Shown here: positions 8,779 through 11,867 of the stretch, piece after piece
Layout of the letters: every line of letters begins with the position of its first letter
Position numbering within the stretch: position 1 is the first letter of the stretch
Source: an uncultured bacterium
GTDB lineage: Bacteria > Verrucomicrobiota > Lentisphaeria > Victivallales > UBA1829
Reading direction: 5' to 3'
NCBI GenBank assembly: GCA_902778895.1
Contig: CACYZF010000008.1
Coordinates: forward strand, 186,001-250,000
DNA length: 64,000 nucleotides
Translations under genes and position numbers: made by a program
The notes under the pieces: model-generated
Told to the model about the DNA's origin: nothing
What the model saw: only the letters and a program-made list of their open reading frames with translations
Database searches by the model: none

Positions 8779-8811
8779 AAATCACCGATTTTCACCAAGG
8801 AGACAGTGCTT

Positions 8812-9246
8812 ATGTACGACCGCACGATCAAATTCTTTAACGACAACGACCATTTCGCCAAGGAAAACGGCATGGTCATCACCCGCCTCGGCGAAGGCAC
8901 AAGCGAGGCCGTCCTGACCGCGTCCGAACGCCATTTCAACGGCATGGGCATCATCATGGGCGGCGCGCTCTTCACGCTCTCCGACTTCGCGTTCGCCGCC
9001 GCGATCCACACCTTCGGGTTCCGCGCCGTCGGCATGAACACCAGCACGGCGTTCCTGAAGCCCGGCAAGGGCGTCCCCGGCGCGAAGTTCACTGCCCGTG
9101 CCACACTCGTTTCGAAGACGCGCCGCACAGGTGTCTTCGACGTGAACGTCTACGACGAGGAAAACCGCCTGCTCGCCCACAGCCTCATGACCGGATTCAT
9201 CACCGAGACCCCGCTCTTCGACGATGAAGAAAAGTGTTCCAACTAG
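8812..9246 (+). CDS. Hotdog-fold acyl-CoA thioesterase (PaaI-like)
   Basis: A 144-residue single-domain hotdog protein. The PaaI/4HBT pattern is visible: HFNGMGIIMGGALFTLSDFAFA (the central helix with Asp), then NTSTAFLKPGKGVPGAKFTA and a final strand FDVNVYDEENRLLA. Such enzymes hydrolyse acyl- or aryl-CoA thioesters in the cytoplasm. I chose the ATG at 8812, 8 bases after AAGGAGA; a GTG two codons earlier is also open. Composition is GC-rich like the chromosome, and it marks the left edge of the AT-rich island that follows. Confidence 0.82.
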   Translation: MYDRTIKFFNDNDHFAKENGMVITRLGEGTSEAVLTASERHFNGMGIIMGGALFTLSDFAFAAAIHTFGFRAVGMNTSTAFLKPGKGVPGAKFTARATLVSKTRRTGVFDVNVYDEENRLLAHSLMTGFITETPLFDDEEKCSN

Positions 9247-9303
9247 TGCTGCCTAATACAGGTCTTCTTTTGTCTCGACCAGCCAAGTATAAGGAGAACA
9301 ATA

Positions 9304-9477
9304 ATGAAAAAAAGTATTGAAAAAATACTAATCAATGCAATTGACAAAATCAGCAAGACAGATACTTTTGTCTATGGAGAAAATGCGGAATATGCTCTCT
9401 GTAAAGTCGTAGATATCGCAATTCAAGCTAAACGCGATCTGGAAGAAGCTCGCGCCAAGGAACCCAAGGGCATATAA
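9304..9477 (+). CDS. Small unknown protein (57 residues) upstream of dpnI
   Basis: An ORF starting ATGAAAAAAAG with a textbook ribosome binding site (AAGGAGA at 9291-9297, 6 bases away) and ending in TAA at 9475-9477. The product is Lys/Ile-rich and helical (MKKSIEKILINAIDKISKTD..., ending EEARAKEPKGI), with one Cys. It is AT-rich, like the DpnI gene 91 bases downstream, so the two probably arrived together. I recognise no family. Confidence 0.6.
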   Translation: MKKSIEKILINAIDKISKTDTFVYGENAEYALCKVVDIAIQAKRDLEEARAKEPKGI

Positions 9478-9485
9478 TCATTTCT

Positions 9486-9502
9486 CCCCCCCCCAAAAAA
9501 AA
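9486..9502. repeat. C9-A8 homopolymer tract in the dpnI leader
   Basis: Nine C followed by eight A, between the small ORF and dpnI. Long homopolymers in leaders can vary in length by slippage; it is also a place where sequencing errors arise. Confidence 0.6.
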
Positions 9503-9568
9503 CAAACTAAATCATGACAGTGTTCACCAGATGACAGTTTTTTTCCATGAAAGAAAGAATATCCTTCC

Positions 9569-10330
9569 ATGAATCTTCTTTTTGATGCTGATGTTTCAAG
9601 ATACCATAGTCTCTCGCAAAGAGCCAGAGTCCTGACTGAAACCTGGACCGTGAAAAACAGTTATTGTCCTCGGTGCGGCAATCGTGTGCTTGAACATCTT
9701 CCGAACAACGCACCAGTGGGAGACTTTATCTGTCCGGCATGTCACGCACCCTATGAGCAAAAATCGAAAAATGGCGACTTTACTGCAACCGTCCTTGCCA
9801 GTAATTATCAAAAGATGATGGATGCTATCAGGAATAAAACTAATCCTGATTTCTTTTTTTTATCATACGATGCACCTACCCTGTCCGTGAAATCCTTTTT
9901 TGTGACGCCCAGGCATTTCTTTCATCCAGGCATCATTATTCCGAGAAAACCATTGCGGGCCGCGGCCCGACGCGCCGGATGGGTAGGATGTCAGATTCAG
10001 CTTTCTGAAATTCCGTACAATGGACGGATTTTCATCATAAAAAACGGGATGGAACAGGAAAAAGACTTCGTATTAAAACAGTATCATGACACATTGTTTC
10101 TCGAACAGCAAAGTATTTCTGCCAGGGGCTGGCTTCTTGACGTATGGAATTGTATCAATCAGCTTCCGGCAACCTTTACACTGAATGATGTTTACGCATT
10201 CGAGCAGCAACTTAGGAAAAAACATCCTGCAAACCAGCACATTAAAGATAAAATCCGCCAACAGCTTCAGGTTCTTCGGGACAAAAACATCCTCCAGTTC
10301 CATGGAAACGGTGTTTATTCAAAAACTTGA
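9569..10330 (+). CDS. dpnI: DpnI-like restriction endonuclease cleaving methylated GATC (Type IIM)
   Basis: A 253-residue protein that matches Streptococcus DpnI along its whole length from memory: SQRARVLTETW, SYCPRCGN, RRAGWVGCQIQLS, SARGWLLDVWNCI, and IKDKIRQQLQVLRDKNI near the C-terminus. The N-terminal PD-(D/E)xK nuclease has its catalytic residues at D52, E63 and K65 (DFICPACHAPYEQKSK), and the zinc site from C33xxC36 and C56xxC59. The C-terminal part (about 180-253) is the winged helix that also reads the methylated site. DpnI cuts GATC only when adenine is N6-methylated, needs no partner methyltransferase, and attacks Dam-modified incoming DNA; the host must leave GATC unmethylated. 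No methyltransferase is next to it. The gene is AT-rich with codon use unlike its neighbours, so it was probably acquired. The ATG at 9569 has only a weak ribosome binding site. Confidence 0.93.
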   Translation: MNLLFDADVSRYHSLSQRARVLTETWTVKNSYCPRCGNRVLEHLPNNAPVGDFICPACHAPYEQKSKNGDFTATVLASNYQKMMDAIRNKTNPDFFFLSYDAPTLSVKSFFVTPRHFFHPGIIIPRKPLRAAARRAGWVGCQIQLSEIPYNGRIFIIKNGMEQEKDFVLKQYHDTLFLEQQSISARGWLLDVWNCINQLPATFTLNDVYAFEQQLRKKHPANQHIKDKIRQQLQVLRDKNILQFHGNGVYSKT

Positions 10331-10382
10331 AGATGTTTTTGAATTGTTTTTAACGACATTTTAACAATACGGAGAAACAAAA

Positions 10383-11867
10383 ATGACGAAGAAAGAACTT
10401 GAACAAATGAAAGCAGAGGGCAAGTGCTGCCGCAACTGCTATAAATGCGATGATCCCGCTGTGCCTATCCCGTATTGCCACTTTTTTGACAGAGACCGCA
10501 ACGGGGATGATGTATGTGAATGCTGGATGGAACGCCTTCCAGAAACCGACGAACAAGTCAAAGACTTCGTGACTGAATTTAATTCTATGCACCCCGCCGA
10601 ACAGATCGTCGCCATCATGAACCGTATCTACGAAAACGGCATGACCACGACCAGCGGCGGCAACCTTTCCGTCCTCGACCCCGACGGCGACATGTGGATC
10701 AGCCCGTCCGGCATCGACAAGGGTTCGCTCCGCCCGTCCGACATCATGCGCGTGGACGCCTCCGGCTGCATCACCGGCCCGCACAAGCCATCCTGCGAAT
10801 ACCCGTTCCACAGCGGCATCTTCAAAATGTGCCGCGATGTGAAGGCGATCCTGCACGCGCATCCTCCGGCGCTCGTTTCATTCAGCATCGCCGGCGTCGT
10901 GCCGGACACCGCCGTCTTCCCTCACACGAAACGTCTCTGCGGCGACGTCGGGTTCGCGCCGTACGACGTGCCGGGCAGCGCCGCGCTCGGACAGAAGATC
11001 TCCGCCGTCTTCGCGCAGGGACCGCGCACGGTCGTGCTGGAAAACCACGGCGTTTGCCTCGGCGGCGAATCCCTGCTGGAGGCTTATCTGAGGTTCGAGA
11101 CGCTCGACTTCTGCGCGCGCACCATCTATCAGGCGTCGCTCCTCGGCGGCGCGAAACCGCTCACGGACGCACAGATTCAGGCGTACTCCGAAGACAAAAA
11201 CACCGCGTTCTCCGCGTTCACGCCGGGGCCGCGTTCCAGCGCCGAGCTCGAACTCCGCGCCACGACCGCCGCGCTCGTCCGCCGTTGCGTCCGGCAGAAA
11301 CTCTTCACCGGCGCATCCGGATCCTACGCGGTCCGGATCGAGGGAGACAAGTTCCTCGTCACGCCCGCGGACTGCGACCGCGCGAACCTTCAGCCCGGCG
11401 AACTCGTGCTGATCGACGGCACGAAGTTCGAGGCGGGGAAAACGCCCGATCCGCGCACGTGGTTCTTCAAGATGGTGTTCGACACCCAGCCCGGGGTCAA
11501 CGCCGTCTGCGCCGCGAATCCGCCCGCCATCGGGGCCTACCTGATCTCCCATGCCGAGTTCAATCCGCGCGTGATCCCGGAAAGCTTCATCCAGCTCCGC
11601 GAGACGCCCGCGTTTTCGTTCGACGACGCCCTCGCCGCGCCCGAATCGGTCGCGCGCACGCTCTCGGCGCGCCATCCGGTCGTGCTCGTGCATAACGACG
11701 CCGTGCTGACCTGCGGCAGCACCCCGCTGGAGGCGTTCGACCGCCTCGAAGTCACGGACTACAGCGCACAGGCGACCATCGCCGCGCAGTCGTTCGGCGG
11801 CCTCCGCCCGATCACCGATGCCCAGGTGGAAGACCTCGTGGAAGCCTTCAACCTGCCTCGGGAATAG
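10383..11867 (+). CDS. Tandem class II aldolase/adducin protein with Cys-rich N-terminus
   Basis: A 494-residue protein. Residues 1-68 form a Cys-rich segment (C15, C16, C19, C22, C32, C45, C47) encoded by AT-rich DNA. Residues ~70-270 form a class II aldolase domain with a glycine-rich phosphate region (TTTSGGNLSV), the metal ligands HAH (ILHAHPPAL) and a third His in ENHGV. Residues ~285-490 repeat the fold, but the HAH site is AAN (CAANPPAI) and the third His is replaced (HNDAVL), so the second half looks non-catalytic. Family members are sugar-phosphate aldolases such as L-fuculose- or L-ribulose-phosphate enzymes; the substrate is unknown. An internal ATG at 10588 (MHPAEQIV) begins exactly where the DNA turns GC-rich and may be the ancestral start. 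CGGAGAAAC precedes the ATG at 10383. Confidence 0.83.
   Translation: MTKKELEQMKAEGKCCRNCYKCDDPAVPIPYCHFFDRDRNGDDVCECWMERLPETDEQVKDFVTEFNSMHPAEQIVAIMNRIYENGMTTTSGGNLSVLDPDGDMWISPSGIDKGSLRPSDIMRVDASGCITGPHKPSCEYPFHSGIFKMCRDVKAILHAHPPALVSFSIAGVVPDTAVFPHTKRLCGDVGFAPYDVPGSAALGQKISAVFAQGPRTVVLENHGVCLGGESLLEAYLRFETLDFCARTIYQASLLGGAKPLTDAQIQAYSEDKNTAFSAFTPGPRSSAELELRATTAALVRRCVRQKLFTGASGSYAVRIEGDKFLVTPADCDRANLQPGELVLIDGTKFEAGKTPDPRTWFFKMVFDTQPGVNAVCAANPPAIGAYLISHAEFNPRVIPESFIQLRETPAFSFDDALAAPESVARTLSARHPVVLVHNDAVLTCGSTPLEAFDRLEVTDYSAQATIAAQSFGGLRPITDAQVEDLVEAFNLPRE

Follow-up and report, generated by a model that had tools for sequence, protein, structure and literature searches.

What does a stand-alone gene for a DpnI-like endonuclease do in the chromosome of an uncultured Victivallales bacterium, how did it come to lie between two conserved metabolic genes, and on what condition can its host live with it? 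The gene occupies positions 9569..10330 (+ strand) of the window, by which we mean the whole 64,000-nucleotide stretch of DNA analysed. Our answer is that it encodes a solitary Type IIM endonuclease of the DpnI kind, acquired horizontally and lodged in a gap of the type swapped between alleles at the dpn locus, a reading to which we would give a probability of roughly 85%.

A protein of the DpnI family

The open reading frame begins with ATG, is intact and encodes 253 amino acids, a length typical of the family; it is the single DpnI-family gene of its genome. Two Pfam domains are matched far above their cut-offs and with near-complete coverage of the models, in the order seen in R.DpnI of Streptococcus pneumoniae (4ESJ, 4KYW): an N-terminal PD-(D/E)XK catalytic domain with zinc-type cysteine pairs (9569..10108, +; residues 1-180; PF06044, 214 bits, E=1.9e-63), followed by a C-terminal winged-helix domain of the m6A-sensing type (10121..10324, +; residues 185-252; PF17726, DpnI_C, 108 bits, E=2.6e-31). 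The PADLOC model mREase_II scores 315 bits. Resemblance to R.DpnI (4esj/4kyw) over the full length, claimed by an earlier, sequence-only reading of this DNA, is borne out by phmmer (residues 5-252, E=8e-77), and 115 of 247 aligned residues (46.6%) are identical to 4ESJ; gonococcal Drg is 42% identical. Judged by these matches, the protein is a Type IIM (methyl-directed) endonuclease of the DpnI family and of an already-known kind. A homologue outside the streptococci is not unusual: Drg is known from Neisseria (PMC4269198, PMC516771), and in the host's phylum 13 of 388 genomes contain a DpnI match above cut-off, so that the family is sporadic there, not rare.

At the level of individual residues, alignment with DpnI and its homologues places the catalytic D53, E64 and K66 of DpnI at D52, E63 and K65, and both cysteine pairs (C33/C36 and C55/C58) align with the DpnI cysteines, in agreement with the sequence-only reading. 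Comparison with the structure extends this agreement to sites that had not been named before. In the DpnI-DNA co-crystal, S17, Q18, N48 and R126 provide sequence readout, while L129, R135, W138 and G140 make up the methyl cleft, in which W138 is backed by G140 in the catalytic-domain complex, and a double mutant of K229 and R231 in the winged helix is impaired (PMC4117772). All 10 of these residues are identical in the window protein, comprising four for readout (S16, Q17, N47 and R126), four in the m6A cleft (L129, R135, W138 and G140) and two in the winged helix (K228 and R230). Two positions differ, Leu65 being replaced by Gln and Asp78 by Ala; both act through the main chain in DpnI, Leu65 by binding a metal and Asp78 by a contact from its carbonyl (PMC4117772). 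The DGAY loop of DpnI reads ASNY, resembling the GSNY or GANY of a clade, described below, in which the catalytic Glu64 has become Gln. The sequence predicts, then, an endonuclease dependent on Gm6ATC.

Methyltransferases of the host genome

A DpnI-like enzyme would be safe for this host only if its genome lacks a GATC adenine methyltransferase. A search for a dam-like methylase, suggested by the sequence-only reading, returned no match to the Dam-type profiles PF02086, TIGR00571 and PF05869 in the 94%-complete genome. That reading was also correct that no methyltransferase gene adjoins dpnI: a gene for a thioesterase (4HBT) lies on one side and one for a class II aldolase on the other. Elsewhere the genome contains six DNA methyltransferase-like genes, three matching PF01555 and three PF02384: a Type III Mod-like protein adjoining a helicase-like ORF, a ParB-methyltransferase fusion of a phage family, a solitary beta-class enzyme, a MAD2-like enzyme, an Eco57I/TaqI_C protein and a large ORF with a weak N6_Mtase match. 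None of the six resembles DpnM or Dam, and from their sequences none seems to be GATC-specific, though GATC methyltransferases of the beta class exist. The MAD2-like (methylation-associated defence) methyltransferase (L027 1225-3351, contig C3) scores 655.7 bits, below the cut-off of 720, and is adjoined by an ORF resembling a specificity subunit.

A low-GC insert between conserved genes

The dpnI gene lies within an insert of approximately 1.36 kb (9225..10590, +) that takes the place of some 60-80 bp of intergenic DNA, together with the gene ends, seen in congeners. Composition sets this segment apart: its GC content is 0.419 against 0.595 for the window (0.44 for dpnI itself), and GC3 is 0.43 in dpnI and 0.33 in a 57-aa ORF upstream of it (9304..9477, +; no family match), compared with 0.86-0.87 in the flanking thioesterase and aldolase genes. 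In nine congeners (G021, G022, G023, G024, G027, G028, G029, G030 and G031) the sequences equivalent to positions ~9224 and ~10588-10590 are joined by about 60-80 bp; no congener has a copy of dpnI, and among 36 genomes of the family both the insert DNA and an above-cut-off DpnI match are confined to the host. One of the nine, G022, carries the thioesterase-aldolase locus twice, in diverged copies (L033, L043) on different contigs of a single draft genome, which suggests a mixed bin.

Both neighbours bear traces of the event. On the left, the final codons of the 4HBT thioesterase gene (8806..9246, +) are altered by the insert. On the right, the class II aldolase/adducin-type gene (10569..11867, +) has a start codon matching that of the congeners, whose genes begin at the codon aligned with 10569-10571 (GTG in the window), and homology to the congeners starts at residue 61-63 of the 494-aa aldolase ORF, where GTGACTGAATTTAATTCTATG is aligned to ATGACACCGTTCGATTACCTT. 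The residues before this point come from a cysteine-rich stretch of 62 codons supplied by the insert (10383..10568, +), in frame with the aldolase and absent from congeners; this is either a read-through ORF or an N-terminal extension, and it is possible that the insertion extended a housekeeping enzyme in this way. We conclude that dpnI is an acquired, putative defence gene that arrived by horizontal transfer on a small low-GC cassette, with phages as its presumed target.

The source of the cassette was sought without success in several quarters. Phage records yielded no full-length match, and viral contigs gave fragments of the winged helix only; two full-length matches in a plasmid collection proved to be chromosome-sized N. 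gonorrhoeae records (2.17 Mb); and a tree placed the protein on a long branch, with good support for 3 of the 11 inner branches and no donor placed. A run of nine C residues followed by A8 lies between the 57-aa ORF and dpnI (9486-9494); considered as a slippage tract for phase variation, it is near chance expectation for the base composition.

An alternative occupant of the same gap

In one further congener (G026), the same gap, with the same flanking genes on one 50.7-kb contig, is occupied by a two-gene restriction-modification (R-M) system (L045 3193-5346). Its methyltransferase is a 280-aa protein of D12 type, scoring 298.5 bits with TIGR00571 against a cut-off of 114.85. The closest PDB chain is 2dpm (E=2e-67), DpnM, the GATC methyltransferase of the pneumococcal DpnII system; E. 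coli Dam is far behind at 2e-41. The enzyme probably makes Gm6ATC, the mark that the DpnI-like enzyme would target. Directly after it comes a restriction enzyme of 436 aa (PADLOC REase_II, 369 bits) with the Pfam domains DUF6996-DUF6997-DUF7226 and an IEID...FEAK motif. On a Megamonas plasmid the same two genes occur together, their proteins being 62.7% and 47.6% identical, and relatives of the nuclease, annotated as hypothetical or otherwise, occur on plasmids of Stanieria, Staphylococcus and Enterococcus. Across the genus, therefore, the gap is empty in nine genomes, filled by DpnI in one and by the DpnM-like R-M system in one, while the thioesterase-aldolase locus was not found in G020 and G025.

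This arrangement has analogues in other organisms. Pneumococci carry DpnI or DpnII 'at a common location' (PMC3573125), a site for which a third allele, DpnIII, has been described (PMC4263131), and the window locus likewise offers one site to DpnI or to a DpnM-type R-M system, albeit in another phylum and between other flanking genes. Whereas the pneumococcal DpnI locus includes dpnD, the window locus has the 57-aa ORF and the cysteine-rich stretch instead; the G026 nuclease is a DUF6996/DUF6997/DUF7226 protein, not DpnII (PF04556), and, unlike the pneumococcal locus, G026 lacks the single-stranded DNA methyltransferase DpnA. In Neisseria, drg replaces dam (PMC516771, PMC4269198). Drg, or NmeBII, the product of this 'dam replacing gene', is encoded like the window protein by low-GC, acquired DNA with conserved genes on either side (PMC4269198), but drg supplants an orphan dam at leuS, whereas the gap described here is vacant in most congeners and in the sister genome contains an R-M system of two genes. 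As outlined in PMC4269198, the minimal mobile elements of Neisseria (Saunders and Snyder 2002) are also R-M cassettes between conserved flanks; the window locus resembles them in that no mobility genes and no convincing target repeats were found at the insert ends.

We are therefore inclined, somewhat beyond an even chance, to regard the gap as an independently arisen dpn-type locus, in which incompatible alleles (DpnI and a DpnM-like R-M system) replace one another. Neisseria and the pneumococcus being the first two, this would be a third such lineage, and its partner nuclease is a different one. The alleles could only replace each other, presumably because DpnI is lethal in combination with GATC methylation. 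The protein family is known; what is new is that, in a third lineage, a single locus has these two alternative occupants, which makes the locus of greater interest than the gene. The finding points to a recurring arrangement in which DpnI and GATC R-M alleles are exchanged at a fixed site: being incompatible in one cell, they have to take each other's place and cannot coexist.

Proposed mechanism and its alternatives

In proposing how this system works, we suppose that the catalytic domain would read Gm6ATC by way of the Trp138/Leu129/Arg135 cleft and that its two-metal PD-(D/E)XK centre would cut within the site, while the winged-helix domain would sense Gm6ATC separately and so raise specificity. 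Phage and plasmid DNA that had been Dam-methylated in another host would be destroyed on entry, and this host would be expected to cut DNA prepared from ordinary Dam+ E. coli, a practical point for attempts at transformation. A small cassette would have entered the chromosomal gap by horizontal transfer; across the genus this gap stands empty, contains DpnI or contains a Dam-type R-M system, and it is the putative equivalent of the dpn locus in pneumococci and of dam/drg in Neisseria.

Three other explanations deserve consideration. The enzyme might serve mainly in regulation or as a barrier to gene exchange, and not in defence against phages, as has been proposed for gonococcal Drg, the loss of which altered the expression of 195 genes (PMC4269198). 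We consider this improbable as the main role here, given that the R-M system found in the same gap in G026 looks ordinary. Or the DpnI fold may have been turned to a different target or modification preference, such as m6A in another context or hemimethylated or unmethylated DNA. Identity to DpnI is, after all, below one half, the Leu65 and Asp78 positions are Gln and Ala, and the ASNY loop approaches that of the Glu64-to-Gln clade; yet every side chain named as contacting a target base or the methyl group in the catalytic-domain co-crystal is unchanged, the two substituted positions act via the main chain, and gonococcal Drg, about equally distant, keeps its GmATC specificity in vitro (PMC4269198), all of which renders a changed preference decidedly unlikely. 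The idea that dpnI came along by horizontal transfer as a passenger, and is now inert or decaying, has very little to commend it, since the ORF is intact, of family-typical length and complete in its functional residues, even if a homologue has decayed in another genome of the phylum (G131, L061) and a promoter scan found no strong promoter for dpnI and no score above that of shuffled sequence. An active, stand-alone DpnI-like endonuclease with a probable role against incoming DNA remains our preferred reading. GATC avoidance, considered as a trace of past methylation or selection, did not emerge (482 sites observed in the window against 508 expected), and that dpnI itself contains no GATC is within what synonymous shuffling gives by chance (P=0.38).

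DpnI and Dam elsewhere in the phylum

In another family of the same phylum (f25), the catalytic Glu64 has become Gln in every one of the 11 DpnI proteins, while nearly all the other named residues are kept. Seven of the 11 genes (in G351, G194, G553, G633, G468, G454 and G450) start 24-33 bp after a gene for a DpnA/LlaDCHI-like methyltransferase (loci L058 6057-7862, L060 5159-6958, L082, L083, L085, L086 and L087). The partner is a beta-class enzyme of 335-336 aa that shares 59% identity with an enzyme encoded by Lactococcus pSRQ700, the plasmid carrying LlaDCHI, a GATC system related to DpnII. Encoded in one operon with a probable GATC methyltransferase, a DpnI-like nuclease should kill its own cell. 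The pairing is paradoxical unless Gln64 inactivates the nuclease or shifts its preference, or unless the methyltransferase modifies some other sequence or, like DpnA, works on single-stranded DNA. Gonococcal drg, which is followed by a DpnIIB-like gene, is a precedent for pairing nuclease and methyltransferase (PMC4269198); it leaves the fixed Gln64 of this family unexplained.

Above-cut-off Dam proteins occur in 51 of the 388 phylum genomes, too few for a statistical statement on exclusion between DpnI and Dam. One genome (G344) combines an intact dpnI with an above-cut-off Dam-subfamily protein (L070 1253-3154), a D12-type protein of 633 aa with two matched stretches, on a 4.8-kb contig. Given this case, exclusion is not absolute in draft data; a binning error or another target for the protein would account for it. 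A further genus offers a second hint of incompatibility. Two of its genomes (G081 and G324) have an intact dpnI and no Dam match. In the third (G131), dpnI is reduced to a truncated remnant (L061 4744-5166) in which D53 has become Glu and the first cysteine pair is lost, while one flank still resembles that of G081, with acyltransferase-like and phosphatidylserine-synthase-like genes; elsewhere this same genome carries a DpnII-type operon (L071 2683-5340), made up of a D12 methyltransferase, a PF04556 DpnII and a DpnA-like methyltransferase split into two ORFs.
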